Of a stretch of 56,651 nt of DNA, positions 2,041 to 50,624 are shown one piece after another. Under the pieces are notes generated by a model. The model was not told where the DNA came from and did no database searches. It worked only from the letters and a program-made list of their open reading frames with translations. Location: positions 1 through 56,651 of the forward strand of contig JAJFIC010000075.1 in NCBI GenBank assembly GCA_021775315.1, given 5' to 3'. The translations under genes were made by a program, and so were the position numbers. The number at the start of each line of letters is the position of its first letter. Within the stretch, counting starts at the first letter, position 1. The stretch is from Paracoccaceae bacterium (GTDB lineage Bacteria; Pseudomonadota; Alphaproteobacteria; Rhodobacterales; Rhodobacteraceae).

Positions 2041-3234
2041 ATGCCCGACGATCAGTTTCCCGAAGATATGCCCGGCCAGATGATCCCGCAATCCAGCGAC
2101 CTGTCAGGTGTGTTGCAGCCCGTGGAAACCGCGCGCGGGTTGCCCAATGCGCATTACACCGATCCTGATATCTATGATGAGGAACGCAAGTCGGTCATGT
2201 TCGCCAATTGGGCCGGGATCGGGTTCGCCTTTGACACCCCCAATGCGGGCGACGCCATGCCGGTTGAATTCATGGGCATGCCGCTATTGGTTGTGCGCGA
2301 CGGCGACGGCGGCTTGGGCGTGTTCCAGAATACCTGCCGCCACCGTGGCATGATTTTGGTCGAGCAGAAAACCAATGTGCGCGGCACCATCCGCTGCCCC
2401 TATCATTCGTGGTGCTATGGCCTGAAGGGCGAGTTGCGCTCGACCCCGCATGTCGGCGGGCCGGGGCAGAATTTGCACGAGAACATCAAGCGAAATGAAC
2501 TGGGCCTGACCGAAATCCGGTCTTATGTCTGGCGCGATATCATCTACGTGAACATCGACGGCACTGCCGCCCCGTTCCCTGACTATGCGGCAGGTGCGAT
2601 GGCGCGGATGAAAGATCACGACAAGCCGTTATACCACGGCGATGGGTTTTCGTTTGAAGTCAAATGCAACTGGAAACTGGCGGTCGAAAATTACTGCGAA
2701 AGTTATCATTTGCCGTGGATTCATCCCGGTCTGAATTCCTATTCCCGGCTTGAGGATCATTATCACGTCAAAAACGACGGCGCTTTTGCCGGACAGGGCA
2801 CCAAAGTGTTTCAGGGCATGCAGGGCGACAATGGCGAGGTTTTCCCGGATTTTAACGGTCTGCCAGAATTCTGGGACAAGGGGGCCGAATACCCCGTGGT
2901 TTTTCCCAATGTTATGCTCGGCTTTCAGCGCGATCACTTTTTCACCGTGCTGGTGCTGCCACAAGGCCCTGAAAAATCCATCGAACGGGTCGAAATCTTT
3001 TATGGATTTGACCCTGCCGAGCGTCCCGATCTGGATGATCTGAGGGCGAAAAACACCGCCCAGTGGAAATCCGTGCTGAAAGAGGATTTGTTCGTCGTCG
3101 AAGGCATGCAACGCGGTCGACACGCCGTGCATTTTGATGGTGGCAAGTTTTCCCCGGTCATGGACAATCCAACCTATGACTTCCATCATTGGGTCGCGAA
3201 ACAAGTTGAAAAAGGCCGCACATTTGGCGGTTAG
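2041..3234 (+). CDS. Rieske non-heme iron oxygenase alpha subunit (ring-hydroxylating/N-demethylase family)
   Basis: This 397-residue oxygenase has a Rieske [2Fe-2S] site formed by Cys99, His101, Cys119 and His122 (CRHRG then CPYHSW). A mononuclear iron site follows with His223 and His228 in NYCESYHLPWIHPG. The family includes aromatic dioxygenases and also GbcA-type and Stc2-type enzymes that remove a methyl group from quaternary amines. The gene is followed at once by a small protein and an FAD/GcvT demethylase on the same strand. I therefore infer a role in stepwise N-demethylation of a betaine-type compound rather than aromatic attack. No reductase component is encoded nearby. The RBS AAGGACACAAG precedes the ATG. 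Confidence 0.85.
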   Translation: MPDDQFPEDMPGQMIPQSSDLSGVLQPVETARGLPNAHYTDPDIYDEERKSVMFANWAGIGFAFDTPNAGDAMPVEFMGMPLLVVRDGDGGLGVFQNTCRHRGMILVEQKTNVRGTIRCPYHSWCYGLKGELRSTPHVGGPGQNLHENIKRNELGLTEIRSYVWRDIIYVNIDGTAAPFPDYAAGAMARMKDHDKPLYHGDGFSFEVKCNWKLAVENYCESYHLPWIHPGLNSYSRLEDHYHVKNDGAFAGQGTKVFQGMQGDNGEVFPDFNGLPEFWDKGAEYPVVFPNVMLGFQRDHFFTVLVLPQGPEKSIERVEIFYGFDPAERPDLDDLRAKNTAQWKSVLKEDLFVVEGMQRGRHAVHFDGGKFSPVMDNPTYDFHHWVAKQVEKGRTFGG

Positions 3235-19677: not shown

Positions 19678-19761
19678 GGGCGACGGGCTGCAAGGTGCGG
19701 CAGCGGACTGTAACTCCGCCGGGGTGACCCACGCCTGGTTCGATTCCAGGGTCGCCCACCA
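19678..19761 (+). tRNA. tRNA-Tyr (GTA), CCA encoded
   Basis: The acceptor stem GGGCGAC pairs with GTCGCCC. The anticodon arm GCGGA-CTGTAAC-TCCGC carries GTA. The T arm CCTGG-TTCGATT-CCAGG is perfect, and CCA is encoded at 19759-19761. A long variable arm between the anticodon and T arms is as expected for bacterial tRNA-Tyr. It is divergent from rlmB. Confidence 0.93.
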
Positions 19762-19791: not shown

Positions 19792-20160
19792 CAACGGAAC
19801 AAAAGAGACCGAACAAAAAGGTTCCCACTTTGTGTTCTACTCACGTTTCTCGTAAGTGCTGGAAAAGACTCCCCGTTCTTTAGTTCAATGTCTGAATTGC
19901 CCCTAATTTCCTAGACAGCTTGCAGTTTCAGTTTCTGCTGCTGTTGGAATGCGATCGGCGACAGCATTCCGTTCTTAGCGTGTTTGCGCTGTGGGTTGTA
20001 GAAAAGCTCGATGTAATCCAATGGCCGGTAGGCGATTGCCTTCAATCGCCGTATGGCGAACACATCGCGCCTGGCTTGTTCGCGGGTTTTGTATTTTTTG
20101 CGCCGGATGCGTTCGCGTTTGAGCGGGTTGAAGAAACTTTCGACCACCGCGTTATCCACG

Positions 20161-20196
20161 GCCTGACAGGGCATTTCATGCCCTAGAAGGATGGCC
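20161..20196. repeat. Short hairpin insert D at an internal orfB deletion
   Basis: The stretch between RRVIG and DNAVVES is a hairpin GGGCAT TTC ATGCCC that begins GCCTG like insert A. It sits where about 60-70 codons of orfB have been lost, so its relation to the other inserts is less certain. Confidence 0.4.
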
Positions 20197-20281
20197 GATC
20201 ACACGCCTGGAAAATAGGTCGATCACGACCGCAAGATACAAGAACCCCTCGTGCGTGCGGATGTAGGTGATGTCTGTCACC

Positions 20282-20321
20282 TAATACCGATAGGTGATGC
20301 TTGCATCACCGTTAGGCAGAA
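20282..20321. repeat. Short hairpin insert C (40 bp) in orfB
   Basis: Exactly 40 bp separate the codons for DAPDR from those for VTDIT. The centre is a perfect inverted repeat GGTGATGC TT GCATCACC, flanked by CCGATA and GTTAGGC. The order and spacing of the blocks match insert A. Confidence 0.65.
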
Positions 20322-20684
20322 CCGATCCGGAGCATCTACATCAAACTCCCTGTTCACGGTATTGTCTGCCACCACGGCCGGGCTGCCACCGTAGGTGCCG
20401 GGACGCTTTTTATAACCAATCTGGGCCTTTATGCCCGCCAGACGAGCAAGCCGCCAAGCCCGATTAGGGCTAATATCTTCACCCAGATCACATAGATCAT
20501 CGTGCAGCTTGCGGTATCCATAGACCTTGCCGCCTTCATCCCAAGCCGTCTTCAGCAACTTAGTTTGCCGTTGATCCTCCAACGCACGCTGACAAAATGG
20601 TTCGCGTAGCCATGCATAGAAGCCACTCGGATGCACGGCCAGCATCCGGCACATTGCCCGCACGGCAAACACCAGCCGGTTCTC

Positions 20685-20720
20685 GGCCCCTCTCATTAAA
20701 ACTACGTTTCAACTGCCGGG
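20685..20720. repeat. Short hairpin insert E near the orfB start
   Basis: The stretch interrupts orfB after YAFIHC. It aligns with insert A as CCT-TC--TAA---CTACG--TTCA-CTG-CGG and folds through TTAAAAC / GTTTCAA around TAC. Boundaries are uncertain by several bases because some orfB sequence was also lost. Confidence 0.5.
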
Positions 20721-20800
20721 CAATGGATAAACGCATACCTCGCCCGCCGACCGGCATCGGTTTGCCAGCAAACAGCGAGAGGGGGCGGCCTGGCGAAGTT

Positions 20801-20838
20801 CCCTTTCGGCGAATGTGCCATTCACCTGTCGGTCAGCG
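20801..20838. repeat. Short hairpin insert B (about 38 bp) at the end of orfA
   Basis: This segment interrupts orfA just before the YFA codons. Its last 20 bases match those of insert A at 18 positions. The core GGCGAATG / CATTCACC around a 3-base loop forms the same type of hairpin. Confidence 0.7.
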
Positions 20839-20991
20839 CACGGTCGCCTTTTTTAAAATGTCCCGCTCCTCCGTCACCCGCGCCAAATCGCGCTTTAGGC
20901 GACGGATCTCGTCGGTCTGGGCATCAACTTCTTTGACCACCTTCTTGGGCCGCGAAAACAGCTTCTGCCATGTGTAGATTGACTTGGTGCT

Positions 20992-21031
20992 GCCTGTCGG
21001 TAATTGCTACGCATTCACCTGTCGGCCAACG
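20992..21031. repeat. Short hairpin insert A (40 bp) in orfA
   Basis: This 40-bp segment interrupts orfA exactly between the codons for GV and STK. It contains CCTGTCGG twice as a direct repeat and an imperfect inverted core GGTAATTGC / GCATTCACC around TA. Its right half, CATTCACCTGTCGG, is identical to insert B. Confidence 0.7.
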
Positions 21032-21189
21032 GACCCCAAACGCTCAGCAACCTCGCGGACGGGATAGCCCCGATCTTCGGCCTGAGCGACAGCATCGCGT
21101 TTGAACTCTTCTGTGAATTTAACTCCGGACATATCGTCCTCCTTGCTTCCAAAATTACCAAGCAATGTGTCTGCAAATCTACGGGCTAT

Positions 21190-21984
21190 TCAATTGCCCT
21201 TTGTTTGCATCCAGGCCTCTTGCACCGCCGCAGGGATCGACCCGCCCCAAGCAACTGTAATATCGGTGGCGGCTTGTGACAGTCCGGCCAGAATGCTTGC
21301 CTCGGCCTGCTCGGTTAGGCGCGATTTGGGGGTGGCGACGGCGACTGCGCCGCAGCAGGTGCCGTTTCGATCAAACAACGGGGCCGAGATGCCGTATATG
21401 CCGGTTTCATACCCGCCTTCGGAACGGCCAAAACCGGTGCGACGGATATCCTCAAAATCGACCTGCAAAACCTCGGCCTGCGTACTGGTGTCATCTGTAA
21501 TTTGCGACAGCGGTTCTGCCAGAACCTGATCGCGAAATGCGTCATCCGCATAGGCCATCACCACCAACCCCGACGCTGTCGCATGATAAGGCAGCATGTC
21601 TGCCGGTTCGATATAGACGCGGTTGCCGTGGGTCTGATCGTCGATATGGGCCAGCGCACTTAGCCCGGCCGTGCCCTGAACGATAGAGACGTGAACGGTT
21701 TCCTGCACCGCAGCAAAAAGCCGGTCCAACGCTTTCATTGCTGACGCGCTGGCAGGAAAGGTTTGTTCGCGCACCAAGGCTAGGCGCGGGATCGCAGCAC
21801 CCAGTCGGTAAGCCTTGGTTGTGGGGTCCTGTTCTAAAAAACCGGCCTTAACCAATTCAGACAACCGACGATGGGTCGAGGCTTTGTCATATCCCGATAG
21901 CCTGGCGAATTCAGACAGGCCAATTTCGGGCGAGAAGGCTGATAAGTAATTCAGCAATTTCAAGGTCTTGGCAACCGTTCCCAT
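21190..21984 (-). CDS. IclR-family transcriptional regulator
   Basis: This 264-residue regulator is likely to control the divergent FAD/GcvT gene. The ATG at 21984 (MGTVAKTLKLLNYLSAF) is chosen because AAAGG precedes it and family members start here. Residues about 5-75 form the winged helix (IGLSEFARLSGYDKASTHRRLSEL). The C-terminal effector domain follows, with the family blocks LPYHATASGLVVMAYA and GIYGISAPLFDRNGTCCGAVAV. Its stop codon TGA is the terminal TGA of the adjacent IS3 inverted repeat, so the last residues (MQTKGN) may not be the original end. The effector is unknown but is probably the methylated substrate or a product. Confidence 0.88.
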   Translation of the reverse strand: MGTVAKTLKLLNYLSAFSPEIGLSEFARLSGYDKASTHRRLSELVKAGFLEQDPTTKAYRLGAAIPRLALVREQTFPASASAMKALDRLFAAVQETVHVSIVQGTAGLSALAHIDDQTHGNRVYIEPADMLPYHATASGLVVMAYADDAFRDQVLAEPLSQITDDTSTQAEVLQVDFEDIRRTGFGRSEGGYETGIYGISAPLFDRNGTCCGAVAVATPKSRLTEQAEASILAGLSQAATDITVAWGGSIPAAVQEAWMQTKGN

Positions 21985-50340: not shown

Positions 50341-50521
50341 TTTCGACCTCTGTTATTCTGTTGTTATTCTGTGTCGTTGCCTGTGGTTTACAGATTTGCG
50401 GTCATCTTGGCTTGAAGGCAAGAAATTTGTGGCGTGATGCGCCTGTCTTGTTGTTGCGGCAAATCTGGCAATCCGTTCCGGCCAACCCGCATTGACCCAG
50501 CACCTGAATTCCCCTAAACGA

Positions 50522-50582
50522 GGGCCGTGGCGATTTGTAACCGGATTGTGGGCCACGTTAAACAAGTCCACTAAAGAGGTCG
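50522..50582 (+). promoter_or_regulatory. SAM-II riboswitch upstream of metZ
   Basis: The P1 stem is CGTGGC (50526-50531) with GCCACG (50552-50557). The conserved loop bases GATTTG and GGATTG follow the first strand, TTAAACAA the second, and CTAAA lies near the 3' end. ACC at 50540-50542 can pair with GGT at 50578-50580 as the SAM-II pseudoknot. The class is typical of alphaproteobacterial met genes. It senses S-adenosylmethionine. Confidence 0.85.
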
Positions 50583-50592
50583 CGCAGAGATG

Positions 50593-50624
50593 CCCCCGAC
50601 CTGTTCACAGTGCGGGGGTTTTTT
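50593..50624 (+). terminator. Intrinsic terminator between the SAM-II riboswitch and metZ
   Basis: The stem CCCCCG / CGGGGG is followed by TTTTTTA, 30 bp before the metZ ATG. It is the expression platform of the riboswitch. An alternative helix, AGGTC (50577-50581) with GACCT (50598-50602), overlaps both the pseudoknot strand and the base of the terminator. Confidence 0.85.

Follow-up and report, generated by a model that had tools for sequence, protein, structure and literature searches.

The window analysed here, a stretch of 56,651 nucleotides from the genome of a Paracoccaceae bacterium (G000), contains a degenerate IS3-family element into which seven members of one family of short hairpin sequences have been inserted. 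We consider it highly probable that these are non-autonomous mobile DNA elements of one family, about 40 bp long and able to fold into hairpins, that settle mostly in the genes of insertion sequences (IS), usually killing them. Tiny mobile palindromes had been one suggestion of an earlier, sequence-only reading of the window, and it is supported by empty sites, a common consensus with covarying stems, distribution over many genera and nine IS families, and the occurrence of different hairpins at the same site. That reading did not see that IS genes in general are the targets, nor that particular sites are used recurrently.

Seven insertions in an IS3 remnant and the anatomy of the element

The insertions were identified by alignment of the IS3 remnant to hairpin-free relatives, and are listed below with their scores against R1, a model built from 11 copies of the hairpin. 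The ends of the remnant (termini TGAATAGCCC and GGGGCAATTCA, with the orfA start at 21132) were read by eye from the sequence and from the point where the same-genome copy L002 ceases to match.

About 19893-21192, minus strand: degenerate IS3-family element, from alignment to relatives L002, L006, L007 and L009, with ends inferred by eye
20995-21033, minus strand: hairpin element a, 39 bp; 43.8 bits; empty in L002
20801-20840, minus strand: hairpin element b, about 36-40 bp; 38.7 bits; near the end of orfA
About 20745-20783, plus strand: hairpin element k, 37 bp inserted; 19.0 bits, E 0.017 (match 20750-20783)
20688-20725, minus strand: hairpin element d, 38 bp; 32.2 bits; at the start of orfB
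20282-20317, plus strand: hairpin element c, about 35 bp; 34.0 bits; in orfB, directly ahead of the VTDITY motif
20161-20196, plus strand: hairpin element e; only 11.9 bits, E 1.2 (20162-20190), a weak match
20019-20057, plus strand: hairpin element f, 39 bp; 37.7 bits; near the end of orfB

Five extra segments had been proposed before, and all five prove to be genuine insertions to within a few bases of their proposed places; the total is seven, those at 20019-20057 and 20745-20781 having been overlooked. The segments are not normal coding sequence of intact homologues, as relatives are found without them. Element a lies in the orfA helix-turn-helix (G V^S), with two differing bases at its junction, and its limits were taken from alignment to a partial same-genome copy (G000:C109:142-419) and to L009. 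Because this copy is 39 nt shorter at element a, but is otherwise identical at 269 of 278 aligned bases, element a can be identified as an insertion. Element d is an exact insertion (TTTATC^GCCG). Element b was split by the aligner and its limits were taken by eye. For element c the alignment gives 20282-20316 (35 nt). Element e sits on the junction of an orfB deletion of ~64 codons (residues 93-156 of L007 orfB), and is recognised chiefly by its fold and by this location. Judging by its position, the deletion would have removed a conserved catalytic Asp, in which case the window IS3 is dead regardless of its hairpins. Seven insertions, together with a deletion that ends at one of the hairpins, have probably left this IS3 dead.

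The best five of the 26 matches reported for R1 in the window all fall in the IS3 remnant (E 7e-9 to 7e-6); these five are among the 11 copies from which R1 was built and so match by construction, elements k and e being the window copies absent from its training set. The pattern CCGACAGGTGAWTG, with at most one mismatch, has 10 matches in the genome of the window against 0 for the reversed control; of these matches, six proved on reading their context to be hairpins and the other four did not. The hairpin element matched no family of Rfam, and at gathering score the window matched only a tRNA and SAM_alpha, the latter a riboswitch at 50517-50595 (58 bits). A tRNA-Tyr (GTA) gene at 19678-19761, separated by about 130 bp from the nearer end of the remnant, is not among the Rfam tRNA-model matches at that score.

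The consensus of the family is C[AG][CT]TG-NCCG[GA]CA-stem-loop-stem-GAGAGG(G), 37-43 bp in length, in which fixed ends (CAYTG-NCCGGCA on the left and GAGAGG on the right) flank a variable self-complementary stem. Measured from CAYTG to the last model base, the 104 copies have lengths of 40 (54 copies), 39 (18), 41 (14), 38 (10), 37 (5) and 43 (3), so the 38-40 bp given by the sequence-only reading was nearly right: the range is 37-43 bp, with 40 the commonest. There are 35 different 5' stem arms among these 104 copies, and the tetranucleotide 5' of the stem is GGCA in 86 and GACA in 14 of them. In the fold, the CC/GG clamp is outermost and is followed inwards by a 4x4 internal loop (GRCA / GAGA) and then by a stem, about 7-9 bp long, that is closed by a short loop. 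The 11 hand-picked copies from the window and its own genome align without difficulty and show covariation (0 of 500 shuffles), as do 68 distinct copies, in which 97.4% of cells are paired and double changes occur at 10 of the 11 pairs (0 of 500 shuffles). Sliding the pairing partner abolishes this pattern in the 68 distinct rows. Their alignment (A4) was fitted to the model; an alignment made without structure (A3) gives the same covariation. The family has both further copies and a conserved fold.

Interrupted genes, mode of insertion and distribution

Most hairpins lie within transposase genes, where they usually break the reading frame. Nine IS families are well-supported targets: IS3, IS5, IS6, IS21, IS30, IS66, IS110, IS256 and IS1182. 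At least 91 of 136 non-redundant sites (177 listed hits, less those with near-identical left flanks or too near an end) are in IS genes. With hairpins masked, 71 of them have matches to verified IS proteins; an unmasked count of 80 of 136 is possibly inflated by translated hairpins in the queries, and falls to 71 when these are masked and unverified queries are taken out. For twenty further sites the IS assignment comes from the site's own flanks, through family scans or codon alignments (IS110, IS256 and IS3, 3 each; IS21, IS30, IS66 and IS6, 2 each; IS1182, 1; other DDE or Tnp-HTH, 2). Weaker matches (L152_471, L222, L239, L086 twice, L151, L231 twice and L147) would raise the 91 to 100 of 136. 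The loci were found via their hairpins, and the proportion of filled IS copies can not be read from them.

When 105 of the 172 flank fragments were scanned, all 18 matched NCBIfam families proved to be those of transposases or of accessory proteins of IS, and the 21 matched Pfam families were likewise almost all IS-related, the exceptions being FmdA_AmdA and a zinc ribbon; these tallies are by matched family, and do not count fragments without a match. As a control, 101 fragments were taken from 52 of these loci at points over 2.2 kb distant; they matched ordinary genes, and there is no transposase among the 25 families listed first out of 214 in one scan and out of 39 in the other. The 45 sites (of 136) without a well-supported IS assignment include examples near genes for ParB-HTH, phage integrase, formamidase, NUDIX and SIR2 proteins. 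Copies that lie outside IS by reading are found at C65 and at L044, the latter beside a tRNA-like sequence.

The elements insert as DNA, in either orientation and without target duplication, most often 3' of (A/G)TC. Among 16 aligned pairs of filled and empty sites, 13 differ by a single clean gap, the exceptions being L238, L215 and L223. The best empty site comes from comparison of L200 (Puniceibacterium antarcticum) with an annotated IS5 of the Pseudosulfitobacter plasmid CP069018: between GGTCGCATC and GATCATCAC, L200 has 40 extra bases, with nearly identical flanks and boundaries that can not be shifted. The 37-bp insertions seen with L229/L209 and L201/L214 are of the same clean kind. 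Empty homologues were found for 30 of 98 hairpins among the compared loci. Four plasmid records (H31-H34), in which the matching stretch is annotated as IS110 transposase, span the whole 521-nt query, hairpin included, and are 40-41 nt shorter, a length difference that does not by itself place the gap. At the best-resolved insertions no target sequence is duplicated or lost.

(A/G)TC directly precedes the element on its 5' side at 58 of the 136 sites (ATC at 41 and GTC at 17). At the 104 sites with a canonical left end, the last two 5' positions are C in 83 and T in 68, preceded by A in 54 or G in 26; no target signal was seen farther out than (A/G)TC at the 136 sites. Relative to the interrupted gene, 28 hairpins are on the same and 29 on the opposite strand with hairpins masked (30 and 31 unmasked).

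Thirteen R1 matches at E 0.01 or better are found in the genome of the window. Five lie in the window IS3, and a further broken IS3, at C74, has three; the IS3 at C101 contributes one, as do C8 and C37 (the latter next to an IS21 transposase), and the remaining two form a head-to-head pair at C65. By eye, the C65 pair sits in a repeat that has an empty form at C8; a head-to-head pair (L020 1468-1534, L032 about 1530-1575) breaks the intergenic repeat GGTGGG^TGCAAAGCGCCC..., which has its empty form at C8. Inverted pairs of a similar kind, with a spacing of 29 nt, are present at L137, L138, L158 and G099:C36.

At least 88 of 395 genomes of the same family are positive for the model at E 1e-4, a lower bound given that the best 17 candidates per genome were scored. 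In a scan of 41 genomes, the own genome included, in which the best 150 were scored, 15 are positive, all among the 25 of the same family; none of the 16 genomes from other families of the class is positive. An exact degenerate pattern retrieved 63 stretches from a collection of 84,980 species, of which 53 are Rhodobacterales by title (Leisingera, Roseobacter, Ruegeria, Phaeobacter, Thalassovita and others). The other 10 are from Ahrensia, Oricola and other Hyphomicrobiales/Rhizobiaceae, and from single MAGs named Kiloniellaceae, Immundisolibacterales and Marinobacter; MAG placements outside Rhodobacterales may be binning errors. There was one stretch with exact matches in IMG/VR, and five plasmid records matched a 40-mer query. 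Plasmid records matching the IS5 and IS110 queries number 726 and 723, many at 60-80% identity, counts that cover records with or without a hairpin. No gene is annotated at the hairpin in the contexts of H26 and H28, which is weak evidence since pseudogenes go unlisted there. One identical 35-nt hairpin sequence occurs in different IS of different genera. The heaviest loading seen is seven hairpins at L234 (1621-2781) and five at L196 (3700-4638), each within about 1 kb, and G185:C285:42314-42521 has three tandem hairpins 87 bp apart.

Recurrent sites and the fate of the interrupted IS

Comparison of 14 IS5-type copies with the hairpin-free copy L257 (leaving out L082, L084 and L157b) revealed 23 inserts of the hairpin family at few positions, the other 5 of the 28 long inserts being of other kinds. 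Position 276, in an Asp codon (MI^D), carries inserts in 12 copies. Other positions are 351 (3 copies), 639 (3 copies, with approximate limits in L083), 436, 609 and 84, where two closely related copies are filled and a third insert, in L148, lies a few bases away. By reading, copies of IS110 have an insert at VD^L. A 1-bp difference that recurs at IS5 position 324 is, we presume, the natural frameshift site of that IS group.

Hairpin-free copies are interspersed with filled ones, L257 being 90-91% identical to the filled copies L200 and L228. Repeated insertion at position 276 is favoured, because the hairpins there are nearly identical in IS that differ by about 20%, and because L218 has a different stem at this position. 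All three hairpins at position 351 (L083, L218 and L225) are of one rare type, and codon alignment puts five of the eight copies of ACCGGCAGTTGATTGC at one IS110 site, to which two more may belong. A group combining type and site at the start of IS110 comprises L201, L209, L214, L227 and L229, and by eye also L193 and L246. Certain hairpin types thus accompany certain sites in otherwise far-diverged IS copies, for which plain random or repeated insertion is an inadequate explanation. The association could be due either to spread by recombination between IS copies or to a targeting rule not seen here.

Inserts of a second kind, 42-43 nt long, have fixed ends GTAAGGAGGATCAGGAA...TTCCCGACGA (with a few differences in L218) and a variable palindromic middle:

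L148, about 1533-1575: second insert kind, at IS5 position 325
L249, about 7350-7308, minus strand: second insert kind, at IS5 position 325
L218, about 1602-1560, minus strand: second insert kind, at IS5 position 111
L242, about 3129-3172: second insert kind, in IS3

Two 43-nt inserts at IS5 position 172 (L157 and L218) appear to be of a third sequence type.

The evidence on whether filled IS are dead is mixed. L200 and L228, which share a hairpin within one genome, differ by 27 nonsynonymous and 6 synonymous changes (dN/dS 1.37, p 0.67 against 1), compared with dN/dS of 0.21-0.22 for each against hairpin-free L257 and of 0.07-0.22 in nine between-lineage comparisons. L223 and L251, with two hairpins in common, are still constrained (dN/dS 0.33, p 0.008). 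Values between distant copies of IS110, IS6, IS66 and IS3 mostly reflect hairpin-free ancestry, and were not used as functional evidence. In several IS5 copies with 2-3 hairpins of the family, small lesions of other kinds number 0-1. The complete genome G022 encodes six full-length copies of an IS3 with four hairpins (L072 1283-2668, copies L092-L097), 99-100% identical over 1386 bp and all hairpin-bearing; no hairpin-free full-length copy was found in a search of G022, and by eye no lesions besides the hairpins were seen. The six near-identical filled copies indicate that a hairpin-bearing IS3 has spread, and the simplest reading is that it is, or formerly was, mobilised in trans. It is possible that some filled IS are still active.

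Explanations for the hairpin family and comparison with known systems

A short 5' target motif, the lack of duplication and a tetranucleotide at the foot of the hairpin together recall the anatomy of single-strand transposition described for REP and IS200/IS605 (PMC6006769), which we take as an analogy rather than as a sign of membership. The elements would be moved in trans by an enzyme, probably one working through a folded single strand in the manner of REPs or of the ends of IS200/IS605-type elements. An insertion would usually kill the host IS, and the elements could persist and spread in that IS genes are dispensable, with copies riding on plasmids and on IS mobilised by intact relatives; IS DNA is possibly a preferred target, which would aid persistence. 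We tentatively suggest, as one possibility among several, that they form a new class of minimal ~40-bp element, which either is moved in trans by a single-strand enzyme not yet described or passes from one IS copy to another by copying akin to homing, has its preferred home in the conserved catalytic region of other transposons, acts as a natural IS silencer in Rhodobacterales and, given the second insert kind with its own fixed ends in the same IS, is perhaps one of several hairpin families.

It is conceivable, if rather doubtful, that hairpins insert anywhere and that selection purges them from genes, leaving those in dispensable IS. The dispensability of IS genes, the 36-45 of 136 sites without IS assignment and the copies that by reading lie outside IS all accord with this, but 91-100 of 136 sites are in IS even though intergenic DNA is also dispensable and is presumably larger than IS DNA, and the recurrent IS5 positions need either target preference or spread between IS copies. 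That the hairpins are true REPs, with RAYT (Y1) transposases or IS200/IS605 relatives as their movers, we regard as unlikely. They are like REPs in size, in the hairpin, in having GGCA/GACA 5' of the stem foot, in the absence of target duplication and, in places (C65; L137, L138, L158), in forming inverted dimers, but their ends are neither GTAG nor CGTC, and PF01797 is found in 30 of 395 genomes against hairpins in at least 88, with 77 of the 88 hairpin genomes, G000 and G022 included, lacking it. The association of PF01797 with hairpins across genomes has p 0.066, assuming that both counts are from the same draw of 395 genomes, and hairpin hits fall within only 2 of 30 scanned Y1 loci (L168 and L190).

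Tolerance at the level of sense, with RNA removal or ribosome skipping (as for introns and byps) keeping the IS active, seems quite improbable. It would agree with the multiplication of hairpin-bearing IS in G022, where no hairpin-free full copy was found, with the few other lesions in multi-hairpin IS5 copies and with the constraint on L223/L251; such mechanisms, however, need one strand, and there is no orientation preference (28 against 29). L200/L228 are moreover unconstrained, the window IS3 also lacks orfB codons 93-156, the stretch that by inference holds the catalytic Asp, and no matching take-off and landing codons were seen at the few sites read by eye. Hardly credible is an artefact of a mutational process (template switching or IS replication) with no mobile element at all: the stems are mostly perfect yet varied (35 different 5' arms in 104 copies), a pattern that copying of one arm from the other could produce, but the fixed ends recur in unrelated IS families and genera, and an identical 35-nt sequence in different IS and genera. 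The related suggestion of the sequence-only reading, template switching targeting this IS, is not supported, since IS families with no relation to one another share the consensus, and it is also found at some places where no IS was recognised.

Three candidates for the movement of the hairpins found no support. A RAYT/Y1 mover, as traced by PF01797, is not supported, with PF01797 missing from most hairpin genomes and few Y1 loci having hairpins. For a mover of the IS91/ISCR (Y2) kind, PF04986 was found in 5 of 18 hairpin-bearing genomes tested, and in neither G000 nor G022. IS608-like pairing of guide and target, tested at 83 of 104 sites, gave a weak trend in the wrong direction (p 0.03). There is a real chance that the mover of the hairpins is new.

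Mitochondrial DNA has GC clusters and byps, tiny mobile hairpins within genes that are likewise about 40 nt long. Unlike these, our element has no strand preference, and no bypass codon match was seen at the sites read; the sense-only orientation of byps and introns is not found here (28 same, 29 opposite). IS200/IS605 elements also make no target duplication. Their ends have a hairpin with a 5' tetranucleotide and insertion is 3' of a short motif, according to the available part of PMC6006769; the hairpin family differs in that the PF01797 gene is absent from 77 of 88 hairpin genomes, and that no rule pairing motif and target could be demonstrated.

In anatomy, REPs are closest. The parts of PMC3733652 available to us describe GTAG and CGTC super-families of 20-40 bp palindromes, mostly extragenic, with the CGTC group mostly alphaproteobacterial and without known transposase. 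Shared with REPs are the size of the palindrome (37-43 bp here) with its variable covarying stem, the unpaired end motifs and, in places, inverted dimers. The element differs in its end motifs, which are not the GTAG or CGTC/TGTC/CCTC tetranucleotides, in its location, which is mostly inside IS genes instead of extragenic, and in the 4x4 internal loop between outer CC/GG clamp and stem; nor does it as a rule accompany a RAYT gene, 77 of 88 hairpin genomes being without PF01797 and 2 of 30 scanned Y1 loci having a hairpin hit. RPE and other Rickettsia palindromes resemble it as palindromes within alphaproteobacterial coding regions, but many RPEs are in frame in their host genes, and these palindromes are longer or CGTC-tagged (PMC2229807 and PMC3733652, as far as the parts available go), while the hairpin element usually breaks the frame and targets IS genes. 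No published description of the hairpin family was found in the open-licence literature, which is no proof of absence; the main text of PMC3733652 does not mention Rhodobacter, Roseobacter or Ruegeria, and Rhodobacter and Roseobacter do not occur in the available part of the REP survey PMC12306157.

The closest behaviour is that of RUP of pneumococcus, which is 107 bp long, has terminal repeats like those of IS630-Spn1 and a TA target, and is reported in more than six IS families, inactivating transposase genes (PMC2229807, in the part available). Both are small, non-autonomous elements in IS transposase genes, but the hairpin element is about 40 bp, consists of one hairpin and makes no target duplication, its clean insertions lacking the target-site duplication of MITEs in general. 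If our interpretation is correct, a 40-bp mobile element preys on IS across many genera and is the cause of some of the transposase-gene breakage in marine Rhodobacterales, its clean empty and filled sites make both target rule and mover testable, and mini-elements that live in transposons would have a second example, independent of RUP.
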